Notes under the pieces: model-generated
Told to the model about the DNA's origin: nothing
Databases searched by the model: none
Seen by the model: the letters and a program-made list of their open reading frames with translations, nothing else
Assembly (NCBI GenBank): GCA_016194635.1
Contig: JACQBC010000021.1
Span: forward strand, 62,001 to 126,000
Source: Gammaproteobacteria bacterium
Lineage (GTDB): Bacteria; Pseudomonadota; Gammaproteobacteria; UBA6429; Thiohalophilaceae
Length of the DNA: 64,000 nucleotides
Reading direction: 5' to 3'
Made by a program: the position numbers and the translations under genes
Shown here: positions 15,790 to 58,862 of the stretch, piece by piece
How positions within the stretch are numbered: position 1 is the stretch's first letter
Layout of the letters: each line of letters opens with the position of its first letter

Positions 15790-15935
15790 GTGGTGATATC
15801 AGTTGTTGGGGGACATTTACCGTGGCGAGCGACTCGCTGTAAATACTTCCCTGTAGACTCGGCGGCCGCATCCCTGCGGCCCAACGGTCACTCGCCACGG
15901 TAAATGCCCCCCGAACAACCCACATCATCACCGCG
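15790..15935 (-). repeat. Long-arm palindromic element, copy 1 (GGA-hairpin core on minus strand)
   Basis: The outer arms (about 15795-15833 and 15888-15932) are complementary over roughly 40 bp with few mismatches. Read on the minus strand, the core contains GCCGC-AGGGAT-GCGGC (plus 15865-15880) and TAC-AGGGAA-GTA (plus 15844-15855), two short perfect hairpins with GGA in the loop, separated by CGAGTC. The core recurs in copies 2-4 with unrelated arm sequences. It lies between two minus-strand genes, so the GGA hairpins would be present in a minus-strand transcript. Confidence 0.75.
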
Positions 15936-50528: not shown

Positions 50529-50643
50529 ATGTTAGTGGTTGTTGGGGTTTCCTGTTTAGGTGGCTCGCTGTAAATACTTCCCTGTACATCGTCCCTGCGA
50601 CCGACGGTCACCCAAACAGGAAACCCCAACAACCACCAACACC
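50529..50643 (-). repeat. Long-arm palindromic element, copy 2 (GGA-hairpin core on minus strand)
   Basis: Complementary arms at about 50531-50562 and 50609-50640 (GTTAGTGGTTGTTGGGG... against ...CCCCAACAACCACCAAC), two A/G differences in 32. On the minus strand the core shows TAC-AGGGAA-GTA (plus 50575-50586) and GTC-GCAGG-GAC (plus 50591-50601), the same hairpins as copy 1. It lies between convergent genes, at the 3' end of the HD-GYP gene, where it could act as a terminator for both. In the two mismatched arm positions, minus-strand RNA would form G-U pairs. Confidence 0.75.
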
Positions 50644-52608
50644 TCAGATATGTTTGTATTGCTCATAGATCACCAGCAGCTTCGGCAATACCGCTTCCAT
50701 GGCGAGTAACACATCCGGATCAAAATGTTTACCGCTTTCGGAGCGCATCAACCCCAAGGCTTTTTCGACCGGCCAGGCTTCTTTATACGGACGTTTTGAG
50801 GTTAACGCGTCAAACACATCGGCCACCGCGACGATACGCGCCGCCAGCGGGATATTATCCCCGCTGAGCCCGCGCGGATAACCACTGCCGTTGAACTTCT
50901 CGTGGTGCCCCTCGGCAATATCGATACCGACGGTAAATACACTCAAGCCCGCCGCGTTAACCTGGCCTTCGCAACGCCGCAACACCTGCCCACCAATGGT
51001 GGGATGCAGCTGCATTAGATTAAATTCATCTTCGCTAAGCTTACCGGGTTTGAGTAAGATGGCATCGGCCACGCCGACCTTGCCGATATCGTGCATCGGC
51101 GCGAATTGAAAAACATCACGGACATATTGCGGGGTGATCAGCGGCCGGTATTTATCCTGATCCGCCAGCGCCTCAGCGATCAACGCCGAATAACGGCTCA
51201 TCCGGAATAGATGATCGCCGGTTTCCGGATCCCGGCTCTCCGCTAATTTGGCCAGACCCTCGATAGCGGAGACCACCAAACTTTCCATGCCAACCGTCTT
51301 CTCAAAACTATTGCCGATCTGCGTGGCAATATTGCCGAGAAACTCCAGATGATCTTTGTTATATGCGTGTTGATCACTGGAGGCAAACACCAGGATCGCA
51401 CCTTCCATGCGTTTGCCGCCTAAGGGCATCAGCACCACGGAATGTAACTGGTTCTGTTGGAGACGGAGTAAAAATGGAATCGAGGCCCAGGGCAGTGGGT
51501 CGGCCGCCGCGCTGGTTAGATATAACGGGGTTTTATCCGCCAATGATTTTTCAAACAAGGGATCTGAAAAACAAAACTCTTCGCGTTGTGTAATCGTGAT
51601 CGGCTGCCGGGCATAATAGCGATCCAATATATAGGCATTGCTAGCCGGCGAGTGGCGCAATAATCCAACCCACTGCAAGGGCAGGAACTGCGGGAATTCC
51701 TCAAAAGCAAAACGCAGGGTCTCGTCAAGGTTGGTTGCCTGTCCGATACGATCGGTAAGTCGGAACAACGCCGACAAGCGTTGGGTTAATTGATTAAAAC
51801 TCTGGGTCATGACGCCGATTTCGTTGGCGTGCGCGACAGGAACTTTATAGGCTAAATCACCACGGGCGACACGCATGAACCCGGCAACCGTGAGATCGAT
51901 CGGTCTAAAAACCTGCCGGTATAATATAAACACAATGGTAATATTGATCAGCAACATCACCACAATGGAAATTTTATTCAGCCATTCTATCTTGGCTTGT
52001 TTTGCTTCCATCATTTCCCGGAAGACGATACTGAGTTGGCCGGTACTATCATTCAACCAGCGCTGTTGGTCTAAAATATAATGCGCAGCATATTCCAACC
52101 GCGGCTCGCTGCGATTTGGCCCCAACGCGGAATCCAATTCTTGCTTAAACCGTTTCCAGAGGCTAAAGGTGCTTGCCAGCTCCTTCTGGGCGGATTCATC
52201 CCAACTACAATAAATCATTACCTTTGTATCCGCGGATAACTGTCCTGTCGCAGTACTGGGTTGCGCGTGGCGGTCGACAAGACTACTTAAATCAGCTGGA
52301 ATGGCACAGTTCTGCAGCGATTGAATAATATGATCGAACTTGCCAACTTGTTGTTGTAAATCCGCGTGGTATAACCCAAGGTCGCGCGTGTAAGTCACAT
52401 AATCACGCGGAGCGAATTTGACATAACCCACGCTCTGACTCACCATGGTCTGGGCAATCAAGCGTAACTGACCGGTTAAACTTAGAATCAAATAATCGTG
52501 TTGGCGTAGTTGTAATAGATACACCGTGGTGCTCACCACGGCCAACAACACCGCCATTTGCACCAACAAAATCGATAAGATCTGAAATTTTATCGAACCT
52601 GCGCGCAT
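50644..52608 (-). CDS. HD-GYP domain c-di-GMP phosphodiesterase with HAMP sensor
   Basis: 654 residues. One helix near residues 9-30, a helical periplasmic sensor, a second helix at about 208-230 (ISIVVMLLINITIVFILYRQVF), a HAMP domain and a GAF-like region lead to an HD-GYP domain (about 470-650) with DHLFRMSRYS, MHDIGKVGVADAILLKPG and HHEKFNGSGYPRGLSGDNIP. All metal and catalytic residues (HD, HHE, GYP) are present. It should hydrolyse c-di-GMP to pGpG or GMP, lowering c-di-GMP, which fits with the twitching system nearby. It ends against repeat copy 2. Confidence 0.92.
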   Translation of the reverse strand: MRAGSIKFQILSILLVQMAVLLAVVSTTVYLLQLRQHDYLILSLTGQLRLIAQTMVSQSVGYVKFAPRDYVTYTRDLGLYHADLQQQVGKFDHIIQSLQNCAIPADLSSLVDRHAQPSTATGQLSADTKVMIYCSWDESAQKELASTFSLWKRFKQELDSALGPNRSEPRLEYAAHYILDQQRWLNDSTGQLSIVFREMMEAKQAKIEWLNKISIVVMLLINITIVFILYRQVFRPIDLTVAGFMRVARGDLAYKVPVAHANEIGVMTQSFNQLTQRLSALFRLTDRIGQATNLDETLRFAFEEFPQFLPLQWVGLLRHSPASNAYILDRYYARQPITITQREEFCFSDPLFEKSLADKTPLYLTSAAADPLPWASIPFLLRLQQNQLHSVVLMPLGGKRMEGAILVFASSDQHAYNKDHLEFLGNIATQIGNSFEKTVGMESLVVSAIEGLAKLAESRDPETGDHLFRMSRYSALIAEALADQDKYRPLITPQYVRDVFQFAPMHDIGKVGVADAILLKPGKLSEDEFNLMQLHPTIGGQVLRRCEGQVNAAGLSVFTVGIDIAEGHHEKFNGSGYPRGLSGDNIPLAARIVAVADVFDALTSKRPYKEAWPVEKALGLMRSESGKHFDPDVLLAMEAVLPKLLVIYEQYKHI

Positions 52609-52770: not shown

Positions 52771-52990
52771 TTGTTGATGGTTGTCGGGTAGGCCGGTGCG
52801 TGGGACCGTCGACCGCACGAGTGCAAGGATGCACGAGGGGAGCAATGCCGGGAGCCATTGCCGAGGGATGCGGCCTTCGAGCGTACCCAAACCCAGGGAT
52901 GGGTGAGGTAGACAACGTCGGGAACAAGTTGTCGGGGGATATATTCACCGCGAGTTCCCCCGCACCGGCCTACCCAACAACCACCAACAG
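52771..52990 (+). ncRNA. Palindromic element copy 3: array of five GGA-loop hairpins inside an outer stem (candidate RNA)
   Basis: The outer arms 52772-52800 and 52961-52989 pair over 29 bp with two mismatches. Between them, on the plus strand, stand five perfect short hairpins: GTGC-AAGGAT-GCAC (52821-52834), CAATG-CCGGGAGC-CATTG (52843-52860), GCCG-AGGGATG-CGGC (52860-52874), ACCC-AGGGAT-GGGT (52891-52904) and GACAAC-GTCGGGAACAA-GTTGTC (52911-52933). Every loop contains GGA. Hairpins with A(N)GGA in the loop are the binding sites of CsrA/RsmA, and strings of them make up CsrB/RsmZ-type sponge RNAs. A GGGGGA...TTCCCCC stem at about 52935-52962 follows. It lies upstream of the hydrolase/methyltransferase gene and could be its 5' leader or an independent RNA. 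No promoter was established. Confidence 0.5.
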
Positions 52991-53128: not shown

Positions 53129-54910
53129 ATGCAATTGCAAAAGCGCGAAGCACAGGAAAAACAATTTGTTACCCACGACGGTAGCAGTTTGTTCTATCGT
53201 TATTGGCCACGGGTAACCGCAGGCCCGGCGGATCGGGCGCTGGTACTTTTTCATCGCGGCCACGAGCATTCGGCGCGATTACAACATGTGGTGGACGAGC
53301 TGGGGCTGGAGGACAGCGCTTGTTTTGCCTGGGATGCGCGTGGTCATGGGCGTTCCCCCGGCGCGCGCGGTGACAGCCCAAGTTTTGCCGCCGCGGTAAA
53401 AGACGTGGAGTATTTTATTCGCCACCTCCGCCTGGAATACGCTATTCCCCTGGCAAACATCGTTGTTCTTGGACAAAGCGTCGGCGCGGTGTTGGCCGCC
53501 ACCTGGGCTCACGATTACGCCCCGTCGATTCGTGGTCTGGTACTGACCGCGCCTGCCTTCAAAGTAAAACTCTACGTGCCGTTGGCCCGGCCGGCGTTGT
53601 CATTGTGGTATCGATTACGTGGTAATTTCTTTATCACCTCCTACGTGAAAGCAAAATTTCTCAGCCACGACCCCGAGCGGATCCGTTCTTACGATAGCGA
53701 TCCGCTGATTACACGCAATATCTCCGCACGTGTCTTACTGGGATTGTACACGGCGGCCGAACGCGTGGTTGCTGATGCACAAGCGATTCGCTTGCCCACG
53801 CAATTATTGATATCGGACAGTGACTGGGTGGTGCAGCGTGGCCCGCAGGAAAAGTTTTTTCAGCGGCTGGGCTCGGCCATTAAGGAATGTCATCTCCTGC
53901 CGGGTTTCTACCACGACACCTTGGGTGAACGTGATCGCAGCCTGGCGTTGGATAAAATCCGAGATTTTATTCGACGTTTGTTTGCAACCGACCCGGCCGC
54001 ATTGATGCCAAAAGACCCCTTGCTGCAGGCCCATCAGACTGGCTACAGCTACGACGAAGAAATGCGATTACGCGCACCGCTGCCGCCGTGGTCGCCGCGC
54101 TATCTGCAGTTCGCACTAACACGCGTGTTGCTGCACACCTTGGGACGTTGCTCCACGGGCATCCGCTTGGGATTGGCCACGGGGTTTGATTCCGGCAGCT
54201 CGCTTGATTATGTCTACCAGAATCAAGCCCGCGGCAGCTTGGGCCTAGGACGGATCATCGATCGTGGTTATTTAGATGCGATCGGCTGGCGCGGTGTGCG
54301 GATCCGTAAACAGCACGTGCAACATGCGATTAACAGCGCCGCCCAGGCGCTGACAACGGCCGGACAGCCGCTGCGGATCCTCGATATCGCCGCCGGTCAC
54401 GGACGTTATGTGCTTGACGCCGTGGCTGCCTTGCCGACCCGGCCAACGGCCATCCTGTTACGCGATTTCAGTCAGGCCAATGTACTGGCCGGACAGGCCT
54501 TGATTGCCGCCCGCGGCCTGGGCGATATCGCGCGTTTTGAACCAGGTGATGCGTTCGACGCCGCCTCGCTACGCGGGTTAAACCCCGCACCGACGTTGGC
54601 GATTGTATCCGGTCTCTACGAACTGTTTTCCGATAACAGCGCCGTGCTGCAATCGCTCAGGGGCTTGGCGCAGGCCGTCGCAAGCGACGCTTACCTGATT
54701 TACACCGGCCAACCGTGGCACCCGCAGCTGGAGATGATCGCGCGCACCCTCACCAGCCACCGTGATCAGCAAGCCTGGATCATGCGCCGCCGCACCCAGG
54801 CCGAGTTGGATCTGTTGGTAAATACCGCGGGTTTTAACAAAGTAGAACAGTGGATCGACGACTGGGGTATTTTTACCGTCACCCTGGCGCGGCGGCGGAC
54901 ACCTATTTAA
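53129..54910 (+). CDS. Bifunctional alpha/beta hydrolase / class I SAM methyltransferase
   Basis: 593 residues. The N-terminal hydrolase (about 1-300) is monoglyceride-lipase-like: FHRGHEHSARLQHVVDELGLE, CFAWDARGHGRSPGARGDSPSFAAAVKDVEYF, nucleophile GQSVGA, acid in LLISDSDWVV, and His in PGFYHDTLGERD. The C-terminal part has a class I SAM domain (LRILDIAAGHGRYVLDAV at about 416-432, later SGLYELFSDN). This fusion is known next to phospholipid genes such as cdsA and CDP-alcohol transferases in gammaproteobacteria, as here. It may modify or recycle a lipid head group or acyl chain. Substrates unproven. The hairpin element at 52.77-52.99 kb lies in its leader region. Confidence 0.85.
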   Translation: MQLQKREAQEKQFVTHDGSSLFYRYWPRVTAGPADRALVLFHRGHEHSARLQHVVDELGLEDSACFAWDARGHGRSPGARGDSPSFAAAVKDVEYFIRHLRLEYAIPLANIVVLGQSVGAVLAATWAHDYAPSIRGLVLTAPAFKVKLYVPLARPALSLWYRLRGNFFITSYVKAKFLSHDPERIRSYDSDPLITRNISARVLLGLYTAAERVVADAQAIRLPTQLLISDSDWVVQRGPQEKFFQRLGSAIKECHLLPGFYHDTLGERDRSLALDKIRDFIRRLFATDPAALMPKDPLLQAHQTGYSYDEEMRLRAPLPPWSPRYLQFALTRVLLHTLGRCSTGIRLGLATGFDSGSSLDYVYQNQARGSLGLGRIIDRGYLDAIGWRGVRIRKQHVQHAINSAAQALTTAGQPLRILDIAAGHGRYVLDAVAALPTRPTAILLRDFSQANVLAGQALIAARGLGDIARFEPGDAFDAASLRGLNPAPTLAIVSGLYELFSDNSAVLQSLRGLAQAVASDAYLIYTGQPWHPQLEMIARTLTSHRDQQAWIMRRRTQAELDLLVNTAGFNKVEQWIDDWGIFTVTLARRRTPI

Positions 54911-58744: not shown

Positions 58745-58862
58745 GGCGTATGGAAAGGATACCCTCCCCCCAAGACCGTCCGCCGCAGGGATGCTGTTGT
58801 CGAGTCTACCGGGAGGGATTGACGGCGTGTCTTGGTGGGGGAGTATCTTTTCCATGTGACTC
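58745..58862 (+). repeat. Long-arm palindromic element, copy 4 (GGA core on plus strand)
   Basis: Arms at about 58750-58781 and 58822-58856 (ATGGAAAGGATAC...CAAGAC against GTCTTGG...TATCTTTTCCAT) pair over about 27 bp with a few mismatches. The plus-strand core GCCGCAGGGATGC...CGAGTCTACCGGGAGGGATTGACGGCG matches the minus-strand core of copy 1 (CGCAGGGATGC...CGAGTCTACAGGGAAGTATTTACAGCG). The arms are unrelated to those of copies 1-3. It lies upstream of the plus-strand gene at 58939, so the GGA strand is again the sense strand of the neighbouring gene. Confidence 0.7.

Follow-up and report, generated by a model that had tools for sequence, protein, structure and literature searches.

The known systems closest to the element analysed here are the YPAL or RU-2 repeats of Yersinia and the RNAs of the Csr/Rsm systems. 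The 168-nt RU-2 (YPAL) repeat sequence of Yersinia is printed in PMC2759123. According to the review PMC2229807, YPAL is mobile, with target duplications of 3–26 bp at sites of dyad symmetry, and is expressed (‘co-translated’) together with upstream genes, where it may affect RNA stability. The genome comparison in PMC2847712 gives YPAL as abundant in every Yersinia genome compared but that of Y. ruckeri. The sRNA family Ysr224 is given in PMC9029176 as one of the most abundant in bacteria, an abundance that would be explained by a dispersed repeat. A literature search found no text linking YPAL/RU-2 to CsrA; the TAACTGA repeats of Beggiatoaceae also came up in it.

The SELEX consensus of the CsrA site is given as RUACARGGAUGU, with loops mostly of six bases (PMC7652899); the high-affinity Rsm site has its hexaloop, ANGGAX, placed directly on a stem (PMC4005645). 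In what follows, a strict CsrA-type hairpin is a hexaloop ANGGAN on a stem of at least 4 bp.

Hairpins and surroundings of the element

The element lies at positions 52771–52990 of the window, by which we mean the whole stretch of 64,000 nucleotides analysed. The preliminary description of this DNA had placed five GGA hairpins inside one outer stem, two of them close to the CsrA SELEX-type site. The arms and the stem-loops were found again. An inverted-repeat search gave a left outer arm of locus-specific sequence at 52772–52805 (+) and a right outer arm at 52956–52989 (+), 34 nt long and 91% complementary; the 29-nt arms reported earlier correspond to 52772–52800 and 52961–52989. Hairpin 1 (GTGC-AAGGAT-GCAC, 52821–52834) and hairpin 4 (ACCC-AGGGAT-GGGT, 52891–52904) have CsrA-type hexaloops. 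Hairpin 2 (GCAATG-CCGGGAGC-CATTGC) lies at 52842–52861, hairpin 3 (GCCG-AGGGATG-CGGC) at 52860–52874 and hairpin 5 (GACAAC-GTCGGGAACAA-GTTGTC) at 52911–52933, all five being on the + strand. Bases 52860–52861 are common to hairpins 2 and 3 and, because of this overlap of two bases, no more than four of the five hairpins can form completely at the same time. The folding ensemble predicted open GGA bases for hairpins 1, 4 and 5 (unpaired 0.81–0.88, 0.86–1.0 and 0.92–0.95), intermediate ones for hairpin 2 (0.42, 0.80 and 0.68) and mostly paired first two bases in the GGA of hairpin 3 (0.38 and 0.26).

Two pieces of a family core were assigned to the element by eye. The first, at 52804–52816 (+), is a 5' remnant (GACCGTCGACCGC) corresponding to the 5' side of the canonical hairpin 1, and the second, at 52942–52956 (+), is a degenerate 3' tail (TATTCACCGCGAGTT; consensus TATTTACAGCGAGTC).

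The + strand of the element folded far better than its shuffles (z -6.6) and so did the - strand (z -8.6), as its arms are palindromic. The number of GGA triplets was unremarkable, 8 compared with a mean of 6.3 in shuffles. Both hexaloop hairpins are strict ANGGAN hairpins, and 2000 dinucleotide shuffles gave none in 1951 cases, one in 49 and two in no case. Over the 64-kb window as a whole such hairpins were not enriched: one strand had 3 and the other 4, where five shuffles per strand gave 2.2 and 4.2.

The element is situated ∼140 nt upstream of a gene at 53129–54910 (+) for a serine aminopeptidase-type hydrolase fused to Methyltransf_20 (PF12146, E 3.8e-70; PF12147, E 4.7e-136). The upstream, divergent neighbour at 50644–52608 (-) encodes a HAMP-GAF-HD domain protein. 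This HD-domain gene has a short repeat copy at 50542–50634 (-), ∼10 nt beyond its stop codon and in the sense direction, as well as the long copy at 52771–52990 (+) on its divergent side. The covariance model of the family gave this short copy, in which hairpin 1 is partly missing, 50.4 bits. Two ordinary short copies were also found in the window by the same model, one at 15811–15914 (-; 84.7 bits) and one at 58749–58851 (+; 68.5 bits).

A dispersed repeat family and its distribution

The preliminary description had also stated that the element is built from a dispersed repeat, and matches to parts of its length were indeed present elsewhere in its own genome. Of the 13 DNA matches, one was the element matching itself and two came from its arms being aligned with each other. 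A hand-made consensus gave 61 matches, several of which were two pieces of one copy. Most copies read had a short form consisting of a locus-specific arm, a core near GACCGTCGGCGGCAGGGATGCCGCCGTCGAGCGTACAGGGATGTATTTACAGCGAGTC and then the complement of the arm, the usual unit thus being two GGA-loop hairpins enclosed by a long outer stem. The arm sequence varied from copy to copy; in 39 short copies the median arm length was 35 bp and the arms were perfect in 15. A covariance model made from 55 copies found at least 149 copies in this genome, 150 of 983 candidates having been scored.

The family model scored the window element at only 14.9 bits (E 0.07), and its membership rests on the DNA matches together with the shared core pieces. 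Judged on this basis, the window element is a long-form, rearranged member of a dispersed palindromic repeat family. Nine other places in the same genome were likewise of long form, the consensus being matched between positions 37 and 85. The long form has extra GGA hairpins inside the core, by eye within the loops of the two canonical hairpins.

The RU-2 sequence was 82.7% identical to the family consensus over 52 nt and contained both ANGGAN loops. The family shares with YPAL/RU-2 its core sequence as well as many dispersed intergenic copies. The Rfam model of Ysr224 (RF02770) scored a copy from Yersinia similis at 126.5 bits and one from Pectobacterium at 73.3 bits, both of which had been found by the family pattern. 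On the own-genome loci tested it gave at most 35.5 bits, which is under the curated cut-off of 70 bits, and the window element itself had no Rfam match. The TwoAYGGAY RNA motif, which we take to be two hairpins with AYGGAY loops, gave no match so named in 16 loci at E up to 5 or 1, assuming that its model was present in the library.

The family was also found outside this genome. A pattern scan of a collection of 84,980 species, in which the flanks of loop 2 were fixed and loop 2 itself was left free (NNNNN), matched at least 116 stretches. The 80 titles among the matches listed presumably all belong to Gammaproteobacteria, to judge from their genus names, with L123 described simply as Proteobacteria. 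Within the class of the window, the exact pattern matched in 32 of 370 genomes, while a reversed control pattern matched in none of the genomes listed; the covariance model was positive in 80 of the 370, with 10 candidates scored per genome. A sample of 397 genomes of the phylum, of which the number outside the class is not given, was scored in the same way with 10 candidates each and gave 34 positives, all 34 of the window's class and one of them the own genome. In another genome of the class, G255, 20 evenly spaced stretches of 20 kb yielded 42 copies at a threshold of E 1e-6, including two truncated at a stretch end, and extrapolation from these gives ∼500 copies per chromosome. The plasmid, phage and E. 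coli collections gave no match to the 58-nt core, and the plasmid collection gave none to the window element. One copy, L185, is on a contig filed as viral and has arms that are nearly those of the Yersinia similis copy in L103; this may be host DNA flanking a prophage.

Among 11 pairs of copies less than 700 bp apart in the own genome (G000), nine were ordered - then +, with their 5' sides facing, and zero had the reverse order. In G255, 10 of 11 close pairs shared one orientation. These differing orders indicate that the repeat families have spread differently in the two genomes.

GGA loops, stems and putative CsrA sites

Several sets of copies were compared: a public set (gtdb, 125 copies), 90 copies from G255, a Marinobacter set of 36 made up of orthologues and of loci from three genomes, and two partly overlapping sets from the own genome, namely 35 copies from 20-kb stretches and the 39 short copies. 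For the analysis of structure, 49 of 79 deduplicated public copies and 6 own-genome copies were chosen by hand for a clear two-hairpin form and aligned. In these 55 sequences 88.0% of cells were paired, compared with 56.9% after shuffling, both sides had changed in 31 of 36 pairs and the covariation score was 0.737, compared with 0.178 when shuffled and at most 0.209 when slid; the sample is not unbiased, the structure was derived from this very alignment and the covariation effect may be inflated. The C-G pair closing loop 1 was present in 52 of the 55 while the remaining stem of hairpin 1 varied.

A search of 12 genomes, reached by way of public loci, with one locus found seven Marinobacter orthologues of a single copy. 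In these, 98.4% of cells were paired and 12 of 36 pairs had changed on both sides, compared with at most 2 when slid, while the intergenic DNA flanking the orthologous copy had largely diverged. All seven orthologous loci were filled, and therefore gave no empty insertion site; a same-genus genome, only 66–78% identical, offered no clean site either.

When loop 2 was left free, it read N-GGA-N, with the outer bases free, in 126 of 127 copies (125 genomic and 2 from the viral collection). A hand count in the class sample gave the same loop in 129 of the 136 places listed. The loop of hairpin 1 contained GGA in 102 of 117 copies of the public set, 31 of 33 short copies and 13 of 16 copies from 20-kb stretches of the own genome, 53 of 59 copies of G255 and 21 of 21 of the Marinobacter set, compared with 21 of 178 in a shuffled control; these counts omit copies with no recognisable core 2 (17 of 35 own, 6 of 39 own short, 31 of 90 in G255 and 15 of 36 in the Marinobacter set) and copies with no hairpin (2 own, 8 public). 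Another counting method gave ANGGAN in hairpin 1 of 83 of 106 public copies and 28 of 33 own copies, with 25 skipped. Taken together, the aligned copies show predicted GGA loops that persist throughout the class, with stems rewritten by compensatory change. A loss of the GGA loops in relatives, which the preliminary description had named as evidence against its reading, was thus not observed.

The own-genome consensus segment GTACAGGGATGT (GUACAGGGAUGU) matched the SELEX sequence RUACARGGAUGU at 12 of 12 positions. Single copies were looser: the exact 12-mer was present in 10 of 39 own short copies, 3 of 35 own copies, 16 of 125 public copies, 2 of 36 in the Marinobacter set and 0 of 90 in G255. 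The motif TACANGGANGT was more frequent than the exact 12-mer: 32 of 39 own short copies had it, as did 18 of 35 own copies, 71 of 90 copies in G255 and 27 of 36 in the Marinobacter set, and also 124 of 125 public copies, in which its flanks were fixed by the search pattern. Two CANGGANG motifs were found in 32 of 39 own short, 24 of 35 own and 92 of 125 public copies and in all 36 of the Marinobacter set. In G255 just 16 of 90 copies had two such motifs even though GGA is common in its hairpin-1 loops; hairpin 1 of this genome seems often to depart from the strict predicted site, with a different loop. In the consensus the two GGA motifs are separated by 20 nt, a spacing that a CsrA dimer can bridge.

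The absence of CsrA from the genome had likewise been named earlier as speaking against the reading; one csrA gene was found, and both of these checks therefore favoured it. Across the class, CsrA was present in 79 of 80 genomes bearing the repeat by the model and in 245 of 290 others (Fisher p 1.7e-4, the lists being compared by eye). By the exact pattern it was present in 32 of 32 repeat-bearing genomes and 292 of 338 others (p 0.02). This co-occurrence is confounded by phylogeny and genome reduction. One genome, G212, had 9 repeat matches and no CsrA hit; its draft assembly, in 270 contigs, is 98% complete.

Strand, genome context and possible explanations

Mismatches in the outer arms were counted under a scoring scheme in which G.T and A.C weigh the same. 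Loci at which G.T exceeded A.C on the GGA strand outnumbered the reverse by 70:8 in the public set, 69:4 in G255 and 21:1 in the Marinobacter set, orthologues included; arms were missed in 18 of 125 public, 8 of 90 G255 and 1 of 35 own copies, and copies that share descent or arose by amplification do not count as independent. The own genome had no such polarity (15 vs 9 and 11 vs 10 in two sets). Outside the window's own genome, the mismatch counts show that it is the GGA strand that is kept foldable, as far as predicted pairing goes.

This polarity was compared with the direction of the neighbouring genes. Both neighbours were sense or both antisense to the GGA strand in 21:29 cases in the public set (16:34 with a cruder gene caller in place of the codon model) and 9:9 in the own genome. 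A second count gave 23:22 in G255 and 12:10 and 8:8 in the own genome, and the Marinobacter set gave 3:17, many of these being orthologues; all these counts omit edge and duplicate copies. The ratio of G.T to A.C loci was alike in the two gene-direction contexts (60:12 and 86:21). Since the polarity is independent of gene direction, mRNA of the flanking genes cannot be what selects the GGA strand and, given also that no sense excess was seen, a reading of the repeats as leaders or 3'-UTR elements is weakened. We infer that either the repeats have transcription of their own GGA strand or the folded form is at least partly single-stranded DNA. A promoter-like signal upstream of the copies was slightly stronger on the GGA strand than on the mirror (7.99 vs 7.78; 287 copies, p 0.002). 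T-runs gave no excess on the GGA strand and were stronger on the UCC side (3.53 vs 2.87).

The explanation that we favour, with a probability of just under one half (about 0.47), is that a family of YPAL/RU-2 type extending across Gammaproteobacteria presents predicted CsrA sites, which may titrate CsrA. Under this explanation the GGA strand would be transcribed from its own weak promoter, by read-through or by convergent transcription, and each transcribed unit would be one CsrA/Rsm dimer site. Many copies together would bind and titrate CsrA, or CsrA binding would aid the persistence or spread of the repeat, and long forms such as the window element would carry more sites per transcript. The probability is held under one half mainly because flanking mRNA cannot select the strand, because the promoter excess is small and because single-stranded DNA offers an alternative. 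Also speaking against the CsrA explanation are the modelling of Ysr224, the Yersinia sRNA matching the repeat, on the UCC strand, the missing polarity of the own genome, the scarcity of the exact 12-mer in single copies, the second motif lacking in most G255 copies, the low model score of the window element and the CsrA-negative genome G212. It is rather doubtful whether the repeats go as far as forming a distributed, partly mobile Csr sink, in which from a few to ∼500 copies per genome, each a covarying scaffold for one CsrA dimer and in some lineages extended to longer arrays, would set the level of free CsrA through background transcription and insertions would add sites to transcripts.

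The single-stranded DNA alternative, which is somewhat unlikely in our estimation, holds that the GGA strand folds in the course of replication or transposition, that its two GGA loops are read by a mobility enzyme or some other protein and that they resemble CsrA sites by coincidence or convergence. It agrees with the mobility and the target duplications described for YPAL/RU-2 (PMC2229807), with the absence of sense bias and with a polarity that ignores gene direction. Mismatches containing G are in general favoured and fit DNA hairpins as well as RNA, and the second strict CANGGANG is absent from most G255 copies. In G255 the orientation of copies followed the replichore (52:27 vs 29:42, p 0.003) in a test made after a run of + copies had been noticed, and with skew taken per bin the counts were 38:45 vs 43:24 (p 0.03); the GGA strand of this genome favours the strand of negative skew, that is the lagging strand. 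Against it, the G255 test was post hoc and the own genome had no replichore bias (36:28 vs 21:18, p 0.84) among 103 of 149 copies on 12 contigs sampled for skew. Moreover, orthologous copies keep their structure by descent at a fixed site, which is more than mobility needs, and loop 2 agrees with a known RNA ligand at the fixed positions and varies at the free ones.

The repeats might instead be ordinary palindromes of 3' ends, stabilising mRNA or acting as bidirectional barriers to transcription with incidental GGA loops. In favour of this, convergent exceeded divergent placement in the public set (40:16) and the own genome (15:4), where copies lay near stop codons (medians 37–81 nt). The expression of YPAL with upstream genes and its possible effect on RNA stability (PMC2229807) point the same way. 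We nevertheless regard this as improbable: a stabiliser needs neither conserved GGA loops nor a fixed 3' tail, the T-run that follows the arms is weak and, of the two strands, the UCC strand has the stronger one, and G255 had no convergent excess (18 vs 18). A neutral mobile repeat with no host role, its perfect arms arising from template-switch correction, would account for the near-perfect, locus-specific arms of the own genome and their lack of strand polarity. The strand polarity in the other genomes, and the conservation of loop and tail across the class (the flanks of loop 2 being fixed by the search pattern), make it very unlikely. The preliminary description had proposed a CsrB/RsmZ-like RNA or a leader. 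An outer stem enclosing four or five GGA loops, ∼140 nt upstream of a gene, would suit a dedicated sRNA gene of CsrB/RsmZ type or a leader through which CsrA controls the hydrolase gene. The window and the own-genome loci matched no Csr/Rsm family of Rfam at gathering or relaxed thresholds. The genome has at least 149 copies, of which the element is a single one, and a search of 57 relatives with the element gave matches in 6, none over more than 59 of its 220 nt. With no sense excess to neighbours, the element is unlikely to serve this one gene as a leader, and a dedicated sRNA or leader here is hardly credible. The earlier CsrA reading is supported at the level of the family, in the form of predicted CsrA-type sites.

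The distinct finding is a class-wide repeat of YPAL/RU-2 type with a covarying pair of predicted CsrA-type GGA loops, present in at least 149 copies here and in ∼500 by extrapolation in G255. If CsrA binds, palindromic repeats of a kind described from Yersinia in 2006 would be a genome-wide pool of ligands, with hundreds of sites, for a global regulator. The tuning of Csr/Rsm signalling by dispersed repeats would become testable, and the conserved loops of an Rfam-listed sRNA repeat would be explained. Even if CsrA is not the ligand, a strand-specific structure kept in hundreds of copies, whatever the gene direction, demands explanation.

Compared with known systems, the family has features of several. 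It resembles the GTAG- and CGTC-tagged REPs in being a short palindromic intergenic repeat of many copies. Identity with these was rejected, there being no fixed tag beside the hairpin and the base after CGT varying in the alignment of 55; its loops and stems are also unlike those of the CGTC families as presented in PMC3733652. With CsrB, CsrC and RsmX/Y/Z it shares the repetition of CANGGANG-type GGA hairpin loops, of which each long-form element has several, and the window element does have several GGA motifs in hairpin loops. Unlike those RNAs, it consists of dispersed short units rather than one or few regulated genes, and it has a long outer stem. Runs of strict ANGGAN hairpins, 22–52 nt apart, were seen in other genomes of the same taxonomic family, at L009 1431–1515, L010 1379–1458, L016 1271–1393 (-) and L017 1431–1514 (-); these are nearer to CsrB in layout than is the window element. 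With YPAL/RU-2 the family is alike in being dispersed, intergenic and palindromic and in having the same core. It differs in that arms of copies in the window's genome differ among themselves, and in that YPAL/RU-2 (167–168 bp) is described for Yersinia and Erwinia carotovora whereas the window family is class-wide. Ysr224, for its part, is modelled on the UCC strand, opposite to the GGA strand of the window family.
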